From the NCBI GenBank assembly GCA_021776135.1, contig JAJFGL010000008.1, positions 36,596 through 100,595 of the forward strand: a DNA stretch of 64,000 nucleotides, read 5' to 3'. Origin of the DNA: Kiloniellaceae bacterium (GTDB taxonomy: Bacteria > Pseudomonadota > Alphaproteobacteria > Kiloniellales > J153). The translations under genes were made by a program, and so were the position numbers. The notes under the pieces are model-generated. The model was not told where the DNA came from, did not search any database, and saw only the letters and a list, made by a program, of their open reading frames with translations. Positions 9,224 to 18,910 of this stretch are shown piece after piece (positions within the stretch are counted from its first letter, which is position 1; each line of letters starts with the position of its first letter).

Positions 9224-9268
9224 ATACTTCCGCCAGGCTATCGAACTTCACTTGGCAGCTACGCCGTT

Positions 9269-9348
9269 GCGTCCTTCGACAGGCTCAGGATGAGGAAGAC
9301 TGTGTGTGGCATAAATATTTTCATCATCCTGAGCCTGTCGAAGGACGC
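9269..9348. repeat. Intergenic inverted repeat (GCGTCCTTCGACAGGCTCAGGATGA arms)
   Basis: 25-bp arms GCGTCCTTCGACAGGCTCAGGATGA / TCATCCTGAGCCTGTCGAAGGACGC read directly; related copy at 63776-63860. Confidence 0.9.
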
Positions 9349-9385
9349 AGAATGCCAATCCAAGCCTTGTGCCCTTAGCCCCGGT

Positions 9386-11707: not shown

Positions 11708-11740
11708 GCGGGCGGCCCTGGGCGGGAGACGCGTAGCCCG

Positions 11741-13372
11741 ATGAAGGTGTGTGCGGGGGCAGACTTCGACTATATCGTCGTCGGAGCAGGCTCCGCGGGC
11801 TGTGTGCTGGCGGACCGCCTGAGCGCCAGCGGTGAGCATCGGGTACTGGTGCTGGAGGCTGGAGGTTCGGACCTCAGCTTCTGGATCCGGATGCCGATCG
11901 GCTATGGCAAGGTTTACTACGACGCCCGCTTCAACTGGAAATACCTGAGCGAGCCGGAAGAGGCGCTGGGAGGCAAGCCGAGCTACTGGCCGCGCGGCAA
12001 GGTGCTGGGTGGCTCGTCCTCGATCAACGCCCTGGTCTATGCGCGCGGGCATCCGGGCGATTTCGACGACTGGGCGGCGGACGGCGCCACCGGCTGGGAC
12101 TGGGGCTCGGTCGCCCCCTATTTCAAGCGCATGGAAGATTGGGCGGGCGGCGCGGACGAGCGGCGCGGCGCCGGCGGCCCGCTGCCGGTCGCCGATATCC
12201 GCGGCGAGGTGCATTCCTTGTGCCAAAACTTCTTACAGGCCGCCCGTGAGGCGCATTTGCCGGTCACCGAGGATTATAACGGGGTCCAGGTGGAGGGCGC
12301 CTCGATCTACCAGATCACCACGAAGAACGGGTTACGCGCCTCGGCCGCCCGGTGCTATCTCAAGCCAGCCATGAAGCGGGTGAATGTGAAGGTGCTGACC
12401 CGCGCCCATGCCACACGGATAGTCATGGAGGACGGCCGGGCGGTGGGGGTGGCGTTCACGCGCGGCGGTGAGACGCGGGTAGTGCGGGCGCGGCGCGAGG
12501 TGATCGTTTCCGGCGGCGCGATTAACTCGCCTCAGCTCTTGCAGCTTTCGGGCATTGGGCCGGGAGAAGTGCTGCAACCGCTGGGCATCGAGGTGCGCCG
12601 CGATGCCCCCTCGATAGGGCGTAATTTACAGGACCATCTTGGCCTCGACATGCATTACCGTGCGACGGTGCCGACGCTGAACCAGGTACTGCGGCCGTGG
12701 TGGGGTAAGCTTCGGGCCGGCTTGCAGTTCCTGTTGCTGCGGCGCGGACCCCTGACCCTGAGCGTCAACCAGGGGGGTGGCTTCGTGCGCACCCGGCAAG
12801 AGCTGACGCGGCCGAACCTGCAGCTCTATTTCTCGCCTGTCAGCTACACCCGCGCGCCGCCGGGCGAACGGCCCATGATGAGCCCGGACGACTTCCCGGG
12901 TTTCCTCCTGGGATTCAGCTCCTGCCGTCCGACCAGCCGGGGAAGTATCCACATCCGCTCGGCCGATCCCTTCGCGGCGCCGGAGATACGTCCGAACTAT
13001 TTGAGTACGCAAGAGGACCGGGCGGCGATGTTGGAAGGGGCGCGTTTCATCCGCCGGCTGGCGGCGACCCCGGCGATGCGCTCCGTCATCGAGACCGAGA
13101 TCAGCCCCGGCCCCCACGCCGAGAGCGACGAAGATATCCAGGCGCATATCCGCGATAATGCCTGGACTGTGTTCCACGCGAGCTGTACCTGCCGCATGGG
13201 GAGCGACCCGGAAACCTCCACCGTCGATCCGCGTCTGCGGGTCCATGGCGTAGAGGGCTTGCGGGTGGTTGACGCCTCGGTATTTCCCAGCGTGACCAGC
13301 GGCAACACCAACGCGCCGACCATCATGGTCGCGGAGCGGGCCGCGGATCTCATTCTCGAAGATGCGCGATAA
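11741..13372 (+). CDS. GMC-family FAD oxidoreductase (choline dehydrogenase-like)
   Basis: DYIVVGAGSAGCVLADRLSA, WPRGKVLGGSSSINALVYARG, VSGGAINSPQLLQLSGIGP, DASVFPSVTSGNTNAPTIMVAERAADLI. Confidence 0.93.
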   Translation: MKVCAGADFDYIVVGAGSAGCVLADRLSASGEHRVLVLEAGGSDLSFWIRMPIGYGKVYYDARFNWKYLSEPEEALGGKPSYWPRGKVLGGSSSINALVYARGHPGDFDDWAADGATGWDWGSVAPYFKRMEDWAGGADERRGAGGPLPVADIRGEVHSLCQNFLQAAREAHLPVTEDYNGVQVEGASIYQITTKNGLRASAARCYLKPAMKRVNVKVLTRAHATRIVMEDGRAVGVAFTRGGETRVVRARREVIVSGGAINSPQLLQLSGIGPGEVLQPLGIEVRRDAPSIGRNLQDHLGLDMHYRATVPTLNQVLRPWWGKLRAGLQFLLLRRGPLTLSVNQGGGFVRTRQELTRPNLQLYFSPVSYTRAPPGERPMMSPDDFPGFLLGFSSCRPTSRGSIHIRSADPFAAPEIRPNYLSTQEDRAAMLEGARFIRRLAATPAMRSVIETEISPGPHAESDEDIQAHIRDNAWTVFHASCTCRMGSDPETSTVDPRLRVHGVEGLRVVDASVFPSVTSGNTNAPTIMVAERAADLILEDAR

Positions 13373-13384
13373 AGGGGGCCGGTT

Positions 13385-14488
13385 ATGAAAATCAAGACGA
13401 TCGAGAGCTTCTGCACCGAGTTTGTCGGCTTTGTCCGGGTCACTGCCGAAGATGGAACCCAGGGTTGGGGTCAGGTCGCTACCTACAACGCCGACATCAC
13501 GGCCGCGGTGCTGCACCGGCAAGTGGCGCCCTGGGTGTTGGGGCAAGACACGGCCGATCTGAACGACCTGCTCGATATCGTCACCGAGCGCGAGCATAAG
13601 TTTCCGGGCTCCTATCTGCGGCGTGCCATGGCCGGGTTCGACACCGCGGTCTGGGATGCGCGCGGCAAGCGCGCGGGCAAGCCGGTCGTGGAGCTTCTGG
13701 GTGGCACAGCAGGAACGATCCGGGCCTATGGATCGTCCATGAAGCGCGACATCACCCCCCTAGCCGAGGCCGAGCGTATGAAGCGGCTGCGCGGCGAACA
13801 AGGCTTCGATGCCTTTAAGTTTCGCGTCGGCGCCGAGTGCGGGCGCGACCGGGACGAATGGCCGGGGCGAACCGAGGAGATTATCCCCACCATACGGAAC
13901 CATTTGGGGTCCGATGTTGACCTGCTGGCGGACGCGAATAGCTGCTACTCGCCGAAACGGGCCATCGAGGTTGGGCGCATCATGGAAGACAATGGCCTGG
14001 GGCACTACGAGGAACCCTGTCCTTATTGGGAACTGGAGCAAACCAGGGAGGTTACGAAGGCGTTGACCATCGACGTGACCGGGGGCGAGCAGGATTGCGA
14101 CCTGACGATCTGGGCGCGGATGATTGACATGCGGGCCGTCGATGTGGTGCAGCCGGATATCTGCTATCTAGGCGGCCTTTCGCGGACGCTCAAAGTGGCG
14201 CGTCTGGCCGAGACGGCGGGGCTGCCGGTCACACCGCACTGCGCTAATCTGTCCATGGTGACGCTGTTCACCATGCATCTGCTGCGCGCCATTCCGAATG
14301 CCGGAAAGTATCTGGAGTTCTCAATCGAGGGGCCGGACTACTATCCTTGGCAAGAGGGGCTCTTCGCCCGCTCGCCCTACGAGATCGCGGACGGCAAGGC
14401 GACAGTCACAGATGCGCCCGGCTGGGGGGTCGAAATCAACCCCGACTGGCTGGCAAGATCGAGTTATCGGCAAACATCGGCTGTTTAG
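13385..14488 (+). CDS. Enolase-superfamily (mandelate racemase/muconate lactonizing) enzyme
   Basis: AKLxK-like barrel architecture, FDAFKFRVGAE, DVDLLADANSCYSPKRAIEVGRIMEDNGLGHYEEPCPYWELEQTREV, TPHCANLSMVTLFTMHLL. Confidence 0.88.
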   Translation: MKIKTIESFCTEFVGFVRVTAEDGTQGWGQVATYNADITAAVLHRQVAPWVLGQDTADLNDLLDIVTEREHKFPGSYLRRAMAGFDTAVWDARGKRAGKPVVELLGGTAGTIRAYGSSMKRDITPLAEAERMKRLRGEQGFDAFKFRVGAECGRDRDEWPGRTEEIIPTIRNHLGSDVDLLADANSCYSPKRAIEVGRIMEDNGLGHYEEPCPYWELEQTREVTKALTIDVTGGEQDCDLTIWARMIDMRAVDVVQPDICYLGGLSRTLKVARLAETAGLPVTPHCANLSMVTLFTMHLLRAIPNAGKYLEFSIEGPDYYPWQEGLFARSPYEIADGKATVTDAPGWGVEINPDWLARSSYRQTSAV

Positions 14489-14519
14489 GGATTAATCCTG
14501 ATTGAAACAGTCCTGGCGT

Positions 14520-14765
14520 GTGGGGAAAAAAGGGCCGGCATGAAAATGCCGGCCCTTACCGTTTCGCTTGAAGGCGAAGATGTGAGTTCCCCTACTTGAT
14601 TTCTTGATCTCGCCGCTCGCCAGCTTGGCCTGATAATCGGCAATCAAGGCCTTGCCCTTGCCTTCGCCGAACATGTAGGTCTAGGTCTTGAGTCCGTAGT
14701 AGGACCAGGAAATCATGGTCGAAAAAGCGAACAGTACCGCCGCGATGGCGAGCACGCAGCCGAAG
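14520..14765 (-). pseudogene. Degenerate 3'-end duplicate of AGCS-family sodium:alanine symporter
   Basis: Near-identical stretches to 15950-16280 ([24 protein letters not shown]); carries Trp-to-stop (GLKT*TYMFG vs [10 protein letters not shown]), an internal deletion and a 1-nt frameshift before the stop; copy of the terminator hairpin is retained. Confidence 0.85.
14529..14560 (-). terminator. Rho-independent terminator of the AGCS remnant
   Basis: Minus strand AAGGGCCGGCATTTTCATGCCGGCCCTTTTTT. Confidence 0.75.
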
Positions 14766-14968
14766 CTGGCGACGTGATCTTCTTCGATGCCTATGTTTCT
14801 CATGAATCTTCAGCCAACACCGGTACCCGCAGCCGGCGGAACGTCTTCCTGACCTTCAACCGGGAATCGGACGGCGACATGTGCGAGAAGTACTACCGGG
14901 ACAAATGGAAAAACTACGCGCCCAACCGGGCCGGCGAGGCCCGCGAGGACGTTTCCTTTAGAATCTGA
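14766..14968 (+). pseudogene. C-terminal remnant of a phytanoyl-CoA dioxygenase (PhyH)-family protein
   Basis: EAGDVIFFDAYVSHESSANTGTRSRRNVFLTFNRESDGDMCEKYYRDKWKNYAPN resembles the C-terminal part of PhyH dioxygenases (xGDxxFFDxxxxHxSxxN...R); upstream coding sequence missing. Confidence 0.7.
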
Positions 14969-14983
14969 TATCCGGGCCGCGGG

Positions 14984-15730
14984 TCAGGCGGTGGCTGTCG
15001 TGAGCGCCTGGGTCACATCCTCGATCTGAGTCACGACCGAGATTTGGCGCGTCGAGGTGATGTCGCAGCCGCGATCCTCGAAAGCGTCTTTCGCAGGATG
15101 ATTTTTCTGCCAGTCAGCGACCGTGGAATCGCGCTCGCGCACAAGTTCCTCGATCTGCGGGCGGAACAGGCGCAACATGGCGGAGATCCAGATGTTGGCG
15201 GGCCATGACGGCCAGGAGAGATCCATCTCGAAGCGGTCCAGCATCTTGATCACGTCTTCCGATGCGTACCAGTTGTCGGCGGTGATCCAGCGGTTGGTGG
15301 TGAACAGGCCGATGGGGAAACCGGAGCTATCCATGGAAATGGCGATGAGATGGCTGAGCTTGTCGTCTCGCTCATTCATGAACTTGGCTTCGGACTGTTT
15401 GACCGGGCGGCACTCCTTCGGCATGCCCTTTTCCCTGAGGAATGTATGAAAGTGGCCGTGCTCCCCTTCCCGGTGGGAGTGGTAATAAAACTGGGAATGG
15501 CTTTCCGAATCGAATACGTCGCCCTTGGGGTAATGGTCCAACTCATAGAATTCTCCCTGGCCGCGAAGAACCTCGGCGACGACATTGGTGTTGCTTTTCC
15601 GTAGCACCCTGTAGCATTCCAGGACTTCTTCCCCCGCGTTCGCCATCGCCACAAGCTGCTCGCGGGGTAGTTTCTTCAGATCGACCATGCTTGCCTCCAA
15701 GATCTCGATATCTGGAACACGGATTGCCAC
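14984..15730 (-). CDS. Conserved hypothetical protein (possibly DUF6969-like), His-rich motif
   Basis: 248-aa ORF with non-random composition, QFYYHSHREGEHGHFHTFLREKGMP and TNRWITADNWYASEDVIKMLDRF; no recognised catalytic family. Confidence 0.7.
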   Translation of the reverse strand: MAIRVPDIEILEASMVDLKKLPREQLVAMANAGEEVLECYRVLRKSNTNVVAEVLRGQGEFYELDHYPKGDVFDSESHSQFYYHSHREGEHGHFHTFLREKGMPKECRPVKQSEAKFMNERDDKLSHLIAISMDSSGFPIGLFTTNRWITADNWYASEDVIKMLDRFEMDLSWPSWPANIWISAMLRLFRPQIEELVRERDSTVADWQKNHPAKDAFEDRGCDITSTRQISVVTQIEDVTQALTTATA

Positions 15731-15874
15731 TCACGGGTCTTTGGCATTGCACGCATGTGATGGTGAAAATGGATTGATCTGGATCAATCCTTCTTTTCAC
15801 GAAGTATCACGAGTTGTTGAAACCCAGTATAGCTACCGTTGCCGGTCTCAGCCTGCGCGCGTGGCAATAAGAGG

Positions 15875-15912
15875 AAAAAAAGAGCCGGCACGACCATGCC
15901 GGCTCTCTTCCC
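15875..15912 (-). terminator. Rho-independent terminator of agcS
   Basis: Minus strand AGAGAGCCGGCATGGTCGTGCCGGCTCTTTTTTTCC. Confidence 0.75.
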
Positions 15913-15952
15913 TTTCGCTTGAGGGTGAAAGAGATTTTCACCAGGCGGCGGA

Positions 15953-17455
15953 TTACTTGATTTTCTTGATCTCGCCGCTCGCCAGCTTGGCCTGATAATC
16001 TTTTAGCAAGGCCTTGACCTTGGGCATCAGGAAATAGAGGCCGATAATGTTGGCGATCGCCATGGCGAAGATCATGGCGTCGGAGAAGTCGATCACCGGC
16101 CCCAGGCTCATGGAGGCGCCGATGACCACGAAGACGCAGAAGATCGCCTTGAAGACCAGTTCCTTGGCCTTGCCTTCGCCGAACATGTAGGTCCAGGCCT
16201 TGAGTCCGTAATACGACCAGGAAATCATGGTTGAAAAGGCGAACAGCACCGCCGCGATGGCGAGCACGTATCCGAAGCCGGAGAAATTGGCCTCGAAGGC
16301 CTTGGAGGTCAGGGCAATGCCGGTCACGCCGTTATCGGGCACCCAGGAGCCGGTGATGGTGATCACCAGGGAAGTCATGGTGCAGATAACCACCGTGTCG
16401 ATAAAGGGCTCGAGCAGGGCCACGTAACCTTCGGTGACCGGGTGTTTGGTCTGCACCGCCGAATGGGCGATGGAGGCCGAACCGATTCCGGCTTCGTTCG
16501 AGAAGGCGGCGCGCTTGAAACCTTGGATCAAGGCGCCGATGGCGCCGCCGGCGACGGCGGTCGGGGAGAAGGCGCCGCCGATGATGGCGCTGATGGCGTT
16601 GGGAATCTCGCCGAAGTTCACCACGATAATAATCAGGGCCGCGCCGACATAGAGCACCGCCATGCCGGGCACGATCTTTTCCGTGACCCGGGCGATGGAC
16701 TTGATGCCGCCGATGATGACGATGCCGACTACGGCGGCCATGATCAGGCCGAACAGCCAGCCTTTACCCTCGAAGAAGGGAATGATGCTGGAGATCTGCG
16801 CGAAGGACTGATTGGCCTGGAACATATTGCCGCCGCCAAGGGCGCCGCCGATGCAACAAATCGAAAAGAATATCGCCAGGAACTTGCCGAGCCTGGCCTT
16901 GCCGTCCTCCGACAAGCCCTTGGACAGATAATACATCGGCCCGCCGGATACGGTGCCGTCTTTGTACTCGTTTCGGTAGTGCACGCCGAGTGTGCACTCG
17001 GTGAACTTGGACGCCATGCCGAGCAAGCCGGCCAGGATCATCCAAAAGGTGGCGCCGGGACCGCCCAGATAGACCGCCACGCCGACACCGGCGATGTTGC
17101 CCAGGCCGACCGTGCCCGACAGCGCCGTGGCCAGGGCCTGAAACGGCGTTACCTCGCCGGCGTCGTTGGGATCGAGATAATCGCCGCGCACCAATTCGAT
17201 GGAATGCTTGAAACCGCGAAACTGGATAAAACCGAAATAGACGGTGAATACGACCGCCGCGATGACCAGCCAGGCGACGATCAAAGGAAAGTTGGTTCCG
17301 AAAACCGGCACCGAATAAAATACGGTATTGACGATTGGATTCACGATCGGCGCGATAGCTTCGCTAATGGCCTGATCGATCCCGCTTTCTTGGGCGTAGG
17401 CCACCCCGGCCGTCAGCGGTAAGCCGGCGCAAGCCAGCAGTAAACGTTTCAACAT
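15953..17455 (-). CDS. Alanine/glycine:cation symporter (AGCS family)
   Basis: [62 protein letters not shown]; start set at [11 protein letters not shown] with signal-like N-terminus (17455). Confidence 0.93.
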
Positions 17456-17502
17456 GAGTCTTCCCCCTGTTCCGATATGTCTTATTTTCTGAAATTTATG
17501 GA

Positions 17503-17934
17503 TTACGGCACGATGGTCACGGGCACCGGAGACGCCTGCGCCAGGGTGATCGCCAAACCGCCAAGCAGCCGGGCGGTGAAAACCGAATCGCCGGTGCGGC
17601 CGACGAAGATTTGCACGGCGCCGGTTTCCTTGGCGATCGTACACAACAGTTCGCCGACATGGCCGTGACGGACCTCGGTTTGGGTTTCTATGCCCGATGC
17701 CTTCAACTTGGCCGCCACGGGCTCGACCATGGCGCGGGCACGTTCCAGTTCCTCCTCACGCCGTTTGTGACGCTCGGCCAGTTCCTCGGGGGTGTGGAAG
17801 CTATAGGCGGACCATTCGAGAATATGGACCACGCACAGCCGCGCGCCGGCCATCTTGGCCCGTGAAGCGGCGAAATCGATGGCGCGATTCGATGAATCCG
17901 TGCCATCGAAGCCGACCAGGTAAGTATCGCTCAT
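17503..17934 (-). CDS. Universal stress protein UspA-family
   Basis: [41 protein letters not shown] ... [33 protein letters not shown]. Confidence 0.9.
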
Positions 17935-18315
17935 GTATCGTTCCCTCCTTGACTTTCGGCAAACCAGGCTTGTCCGGCGGAAGGTAGGGGATCGTGAAGC
18001 ATCGCGTATCGGGACAAGTAACCTGTAAGCATCAGGCCTATGGATCGTTGAACCTTCCACTTGCCACTATAGAAGAAACGGCGAAGAAATTCCTATTTCA
18101 AAATATCGGGAGATCATCCATTAAAAAATATGTGTGTATTTAGTGAAAACAACCGAAGCGGCACCCGCCGTCTTCCTTGGCTGCGCGCGTGGCGCCAGGC
18201 GTCGCGCGGCGAATTCGGTACTTGCAAGACCACCGTTCCGGCCTTACTTGAAAAGAGCCGCGCGGCTGGACCCCAGTGGCGCGAAAAATTCGATTTCCAA
18301 CGAAAGGAGCTAGGC

Positions 18316-18465
18316 GTGGCGCGTAAGCCCAACTACAAATTCGACCGTCAACAACGCGATAAAGCTAAGGCCGAGAAAAAAGCCGCGAAGGAAGAACGAA
18401 AGGCCGAGCTTAAAGAGGAGGCCAACCCGGAAAGCCCGGAGGATCCGGCGGCGGCCGAGGTTTAG
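18316..18465 (+). CDS. Small Lys/Glu-rich conserved hypothetical protein
   Basis: GTG start after AAAGGAG; ARKPNYKFDRQQRDKAKAEKKAAKEERKAELKEE. Confidence 0.6.
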   Translation: MARKPNYKFDRQQRDKAKAEKKAAKEERKAELKEEANPESPEDPAAAEV

Positions 18466-18571
18466 TTCCAGTTTTGCCGGCCCGGCCCCCGGAGGGCTGG
18501 GCGGTACTGTCCGGCTGATTTCGACTCCACGTTTCGTTTTTTGTTGACCCCGCGAATCGGTCTGTGATTCC

Positions 18572-18910
18572 ATGGCGGTCATGGCTGTGTTGCGCGAAAT
18601 TCGGGTCAAGGCCCGCCAGATTCTACCGCCTGTCCTGGCCGTCTGCGTGATGGGATACTTCGCCTATCATTCCATACAGGGCGATCGGGGATATCTAGCC
18701 CTGCTGCGGGTCGAGAGGGACTTGGCCCAGGCGCAGGCGACCGAGGCGCGCTTGCGAACCGAGCGGACCCGCCTGGAACGCGATGTGAATCTCTTGCGCC
18801 TGGACGGTTTAGACCGGGACCTGCTTGAGGAACGCGCCCGCGCGATCCTCAACTACGGCCTGGAGGACGAATATACGATCCTGCGGCAAATACCCCCGGC
18901 AGATAATTAA
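18572..18910 (+). CDS. ftsB: Septum formation initiator FtsB/DivIC family
   Basis: Single TM followed by coiled coil; LLEERARAILNYGLEDEYTIL; located before pdhA as in many alphaproteobacteria. Confidence 0.85.
   Translation: MAVMAVLREIRVKARQILPPVLAVCVMGYFAYHSIQGDRGYLALLRVERDLAQAQATEARLRTERTRLERDVNLLRLDGLDRDLLEERARAILNYGLEDEYTILRQIPPADN

Follow-up and report, generated by a model that had tools for sequence, protein, structure and literature searches.

How did a hypothetical gene come to lie between an intact symporter gene and a second, damaged copy of that gene's 3' end, which in turn abuts the end of a dioxygenase gene on the opposite strand? The question is raised by a region of the analysed stretch of 64,000 nucleotides (the window), which is part of contig C68 of a draft genome (G000; 3.96 Mb, 70 contigs, 97.9% complete) with relatives among Kiloniellaceae/Rhodospirillales genomes. 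The first-pass annotation had described the region as the junction of two gene corpses and as a duplication/deletion scar which trapped or delivered the hypothetical gene. From sequence comparisons, we give slightly better than even credence to the reading that the region is an insertion scar, left by one integration event whose cargo was a DUF6969 gene under putative FNR control. The features concerned are listed in Table 1.

Table 1. Features of the insertion region (window positions).
Feature	Position	Strand	Basis and remarks
AGCS 3' end, probably displaced, with terminator	14522..14767	-	BLASTN, tree, substitution pattern; 150-bp deletion, stop, 1-nt loss
Hairpin of the AGCS fragment, candidate DUF6969 terminator	14530..14557	-	12 bp stem, UUUC loop, U tract
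AGCS/PhyH tail junction	14761..14774	+	about 7 nt common sequence, C[CT]GG[AC]GA
Clean 3' end of a 2OG-Fe(II) dioxygenase gene of the PhyH family (PF05721), last 66 codons	14768..14968	+	identity to intact relatives
DUF6969 (PF22308) gene, 234 aa, probable ATG at 15686-15688	14984..15688	-	Pfam 2.7e-85, dN/dS, AlphaFold2
FNR/FixK-type box TTGATCTGGATCAA	15774..15787		85 bp upstream of the DUF6969 ATG; exact TTGATN4ATCAA
Terminator hairpin of the intact AGCS gene	15873..15915	-	fold -25.9 kcal/mol, z -5.8
AGCS family Na+:alanine/glycine symporter gene, intact	15953..17458	-	TIGR00835, PF01235
Universal stress protein (Usp) gene paired with AGCS	17503..18060	-	same pairing in G010 and in further families of this order

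The region 14401-15000 was searched against the window with BLASTN and gave two significant matches in direct orientation to the 3' end of the intact AGCS gene, one to 16162-16284 (111/123 identical, 90%, E=5e-44) and one to 15873-16022 (115/152 identical, 76%, E=2e-24). A copy of the AGCS 3' end with its terminator, proposed for 14520-14765 on the minus strand, is thereby borne out, and its limits are refined to about 14522-14767 (246 bp). A third copy of this segment was not found in the rest of the genome. The lesions which had been read from the letters were recovered as well. An in-frame deletion of 150 bp (50 codons) lies between CCTTGNCCTTG repeats, which are found at 16012 and 16162 in the intact copy; a Trp codon has become a stop at 14681-14683 (TGG to TAG on the minus strand, CTA on the plus strand); and a base was lost in the T run at about 14600, causing the 1-nt frameshift. 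In a tree of the shared columns the fragment and the intact gene are sisters (SH support 0.906), each being the closest known sequence to the other, and the branch of the fragment is five-fold longer (0.116 vs 0.023). Own substitutions, determined relative to each other and to the AGCS gene of G010, a genome of another family, are distributed over the three codon positions as 3/3/2 in the fragment and as 0/0/3 in the intact gene. Small as these numbers are, the 3/3/2 pattern is one of relaxed constraint, and on this basis the fragment is decaying as a protein-coding sequence.

Just past the fragment the plus strand turns into the C-terminal end of a PhyH-family protein. This transition, formerly placed at about 14766, was refined to about 14768, where GGC is the first codon free of AGCS sequence. 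The tail is open to its stop codon at 14966-14968, without frameshift or internal stop, and is therefore a clean truncation and not a decayed copy. It is 67-69% identical to the intact PhyH of G186 and about 60% identical to those of G120, G335 and L121. The intact relatives reach PF05721 in Pfam; the tail itself scores 21.8 bits against the cut-off of 22 bits, and a complete dioxygenase domain is not present, as only profile positions 187-212 of 213 are covered. An intact gene of this PhyH subfamily was not found in the genome of the window. In the alignment, the short sequence at the junction is common to the window, the intact AGCS gene and the PhyH genes of G186 and L121, which stand in as relatives and are not the true donor. 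Of the "two gene corpses", the AGCS piece is indeed decaying, whereas the PhyH piece is cleanly cut, and its cut coincides with that of AGCS. Because of this coincidence, one crossover explains both ends better than two separate corpses do; a single illegitimate crossover may have truncated both the AGCS tail and PhyH.

The AGCS gene beside the fragment matches PF01235 (8.5e-126) and TIGR00835 (above cut-off). It is 88% identical in G010, where it also has a Usp partner, and it is absent from 8/8 other sampled genomes of the family, in which the scar is likewise missing. Close relatives were compared, and an empty site was found in G002, a genome of the same genus. There, ftsB follows MR_MLE directly after 135 bp (gene order eno, small ORF, GMC, MR_MLE, ftsB, pdhA), with no AGCS, DUF6969 or PhyH at this place, and DNA homology between the window and G002 ends at 14493, just past the MR_MLE stop codon. 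The state foreseen in the first-pass annotation, a full PhyH gene and a single AGCS gene at the site, was not found in the relatives; nearest to it is locus L121, in which DUF6969 is followed by PhyH in its intact form. A relative with AGCS but without the cargo at this site was not found, G002 being devoid of both alike.

Outside the genus, eno and ftsB are separated by 120-790 bp. Within the genus, the interval between them (window 11708-18572; L164, L165, L097) holds different cargo in each genome and is therefore an insertion hotspot. G001 (L164) carries a PAS histidine kinase-like ORF followed by a 74-bp eno-like scrap of 77% identity, G003 a radical SAM-like ORF (both ORFs were named from their translations) and G002 the GMC-MR_MLE pair. 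The eno scrap in G001 is a scar of the same type as that of the AGCS tail. At four-fold sites, the genome of the window and G002 diverge by 13-32%, varying from gene to gene, or roughly 7-16% per lineage. Since the AGCS fragment shows 8 own changes in 123 sites, the insertion event can be roughly estimated to date from about the time of the split from G002 or later, which fits its absence there.

Some further features of this neighbourhood were recorded. The GMC-MR_MLE block is located before the small ORF in the window and after it in G002 (window 11763-14493 and 18130-18465; L097). Four-fold site divergence is lower for GMC (13%) than for eno (32%), as if the block had moved or been transferred separately. 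At 9268-9350, next to the eno region, about 83 bp form an inverted repeat that is 84% self-complementary.

In the history which we prefer, a Usp-AGCS pair would have been gained between MR_MLE and ftsB. DNA carrying DUF6969 under FNR control and the terminal part of PhyH would then have integrated behind AGCS, one end being joined by homology within the AGCS 3' end and the other illegitimately at the about 7 nt common to PhyH and AGCS. Three parts would result: AGCS in full with its terminator, then the cargo, then the old 3' end of AGCS, now displaced; PhyH and the old tail would owe their truncation to the same crossover. Afterwards, the old tail would have decayed as coding sequence, while its terminator hairpin was kept. 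Overall, the empty site in G002, the lack of AGCS and scar in the other genomes of the family and the sister relationship of the two copies support the earlier proposal of a duplication/deletion scar tied to the arrival of DUF6969; the notion of two gene corpses holds for the AGCS piece only.

A donor in which AGCS adjoins DUF6969 and PhyH was not found, and the single step is therefore indistinguishable from a tandem duplication followed by an insertion. A breakpoint of donor DNA within the intact AGCS gene was not found either, as identity to G010 varies from 0.68 to 0.93 without a nameable step. If tandem duplication came first, AGCS would have been duplicated and a later insertion of DUF6969-PhyH, together with deletions, would have destroyed the distal 5' part and most of PhyH. 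This course is unlikely, yet it deserves to be taken seriously: tandem duplication is common, the two AGCS copies are sisters with no closer known sequence, and the loss of 150 bp at direct repeats is evidence that the tail does shed DNA. It requires at least two events, however, the meeting of both truncations at a common short sequence would be a coincidence, and a second copy of Usp is not present any more. That the draft assembly, with its 70 contigs, has joined strands of different strains or places is quite improbable, since the tail, with a stop, a frameshift and a deletion of its own, is no strain variant of its intact counterpart, linkage of DUF6969 and PhyH is also present in L115 and L121, and the left border lies exactly at the end of the homology to G002. 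Islands which use gene ends leave an intact gene, the cargo and the old 3' end in the same orientation. An integrase-borne island which used and restored the AGCS 3' end would fit this layout, but was rejected as highly improbable, because no ORF of the about 1.1 kb cargo was recognised as an integrase or transposase gene, nor any ORF in 14494-18130 as an integrase gene, 9-nt direct or inverted repeats were not found at the outer borders, and the 246-bp duplicate has an abrupt, non-homologous junction to PhyH.

In the preferred history of one integration event, the part of the displaced tail which would have been spared from decay is the hairpin. It folds at -23.1 kcal/mol (z -5.1) and differs from the hairpin of the intact gene by 6 substitutions, all of which are in the loop or preserve pairing, including one compensatory change from A-U to G-C. 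When 6 substitutions were placed at random in a simulation, all pairs were kept with P=0.003, a test that was chosen after the pattern had been seen. The hairpin appears to have been retained and could now end the DUF6969 transcript. As DUF6969 is the next minus-strand gene upstream of it, reuse as a terminator is the natural reading, and the hairpin was probably kept because it terminates this transcript. A terminator scan of the minus strand from DUF6969 to the fragment gave no hit; the same scan also misses the fragment hairpin, probably because the U tract overlaps the stem.

The hypothetical gene between the two AGCS copies, formerly given as 14984..15730 with 248 aa, is intact and lies where stated, and its start was revised. 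According to an alignment with 36 relatives the true start is probably 15688. The protein is a full-length match to PF22308 (E=2.7e-85, profile positions 2-201 of 201). Pairwise dN/dS values against relatives are about 0.17-0.25, by which measure the gene is intact and under selection. Residues invariant in the alignment of 36 relatives are, among others, H52, H70, H72, E76, H79 and H81, and this pattern of His and Glu suggests metal binding. An AlphaFold2 model was obtained with pLDDT 88 and pTM 0.89. No match in the PDB was found by sequence, and by fold the best Foldseek hit has an E of 0.94; given a confident model without PDB match, the structure could be new. DUF6969 was not mentioned in the literature searched.

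The palindrome upstream of DUF6969 occurs once in the window and is 1 of 10 such boxes in the genome; a reversed control pattern has 0 occurrences. One of the other boxes is located 38 bp upstream of hemN, and others are beside a cytochrome bd-like gene and a small cytochrome c. Genes for HemN and cytochrome oxidases are known targets of FnrN/FixK in the FNR/FixK regulon of Alphaproteobacteria (PMC4999443). With at most one mismatch to TTGATN4ATCAA, the box is present upstream of 11/13 distinct loci of the DUF6969 clade to which the window copy belongs, typically 82-85 bp from the start codon, and upstream of 0/54 other DUF6969 genes. DUF6969 is probably switched on by an FnrN-type regulator at low oxygen.

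This clade forms a single group (SH-aLRT 87) which is spread over several families, and the copies of G000 and G002 are not sisters. The second DUF6969 gene of the genome, a chromosomal paralogue on contig C4, has 47-48% identity to the window copy, groups with same-genus orthologues and has no FNR box. Among clade members DNA homology ends a few nucleotides from the stop codon and extends upstream, where there is any, for at most 90-170 bp; neighbouring genes differ between them. In G002 the clade gene is found within a prophage, where it separates the large terminase gene from the portal gene; it lies on the strand opposite to them and has an exact FNR box (L093 8003-11581). Relatives were not found in viral contigs, phage records or PHROGs, so that the prophage copy is an exception and DUF6969 no phage family. 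Relatives on plasmids are below 60% identity only and are carried by large replicons. The FNR-box clade is, to judge from these contexts, one that travels widely, as a single gene and into varied surroundings.

Partners of the gene were looked at in other genomes. In the groundwater genome L121 (5073-10622), cytochrome c, DUF6969, an intact PhyH, ubiV, ubiU and ubiT follow one another, a possible anaerobic gene neighbourhood undescribed for DUF6969. In L115, DUF6969 is directly followed by the last 56 codons of a PhyH gene. Relatives of PhyH stand next to ubiTUV in G241; in G120 and G335 they neighbour a NorB-like gene accompanied by an NsrR-like regulator, and the one in G186 has a perfectly matching FNR box. 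FNR activates ubiUV and one ubiT promoter in E. coli (PMC10470549). The association of DUF6969 and PhyH is recurrent but rare (3/13 loci), and the two genes are on opposite strands in the window, in contrast to the same strand in L115 and L121, which requires either one more inversion or an association that arose independently. Being rare and variable in orientation, the association supports a shared regulon more than a fixed operon. The FNR/FixK box, the wide travel of the gene and the PhyH relatives beside DUF6969 or anaerobic-respiration genes had been missed in the first-pass annotation.

The clade was also considered as a marker of the UbiUVT pathway. This was rejected because the genome of the window, 97.9% complete and with its ten FNR boxes kept, has no match to UbiU, which is present in 6/8 other genomes of the family.

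A tentative wider reading, which we consider rather doubtful, is that the FNR-box DUF6969 gene travels as a self-contained unit among low-oxygen Alphaproteobacteria. It would bring its own oxygen-controlled promoter to many sites (prophage, metabolic loci), and its His-rich, probably metal-binding product, with a fold not in the PDB, would act together with a dioxygenase of the PhyH type and with the anaerobic metabolism of quinones or nitric oxide.

The layout of the locus resembles two known processes. Insertion with long target duplication has been described for restriction-modification genes (Nobusato et al. 2000, as cited in PMC3031569). As in that process, a foreign gene lies between direct host copies hundreds of bases long without a transposase, the duplicate flanking DUF6969-PhyH being direct and 246 bp long. 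Unlike there, the cargo is DUF6969 with its own FNR box and a cut neighbour, and decay has spared only the terminator of the duplicate. Homology-facilitated illegitimate recombination with orphaned 3' ends is known from Rhs and T6SS loci (PMC5361080) and from E. coli conjugation (PMC3240628). There, one end is anchored by homology, the other is a non-homologous join, and an old 3' end stays behind the cargo. In the window, the short common sequence at the AGCS/PhyH junction may mark the illegitimate end, and the homologous end would lie within the AGCS 3' end; in contrast to the Rhs/T6SS loci, an effector-immunity array is not present here, and a single event at a transporter gene would be concerned. 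The scar type is thus already known, and this scar is a readable case of single-gene uptake without transposase, with empty site, displaced tail, crossover point and decay. The mobile DUF6969 clade with its putative FNR control, on the other hand, is apparently undescribed. It represents a family of unknown function with a testable switch, whose relatives and partners are found near genes for anaerobic ubiquinone synthesis and NO reductase. Compared with PF22308 as a whole, the window copy is a full-length member but belongs to the separate FNR-box clade, and it resembles the FNR/FixK regulon (PMC4999443) and ubiUVT (PMC10470549) in the FNR-type palindrome upstream and in the position of DUF6969 or PhyH next to ubiTUV or norB in other genomes.
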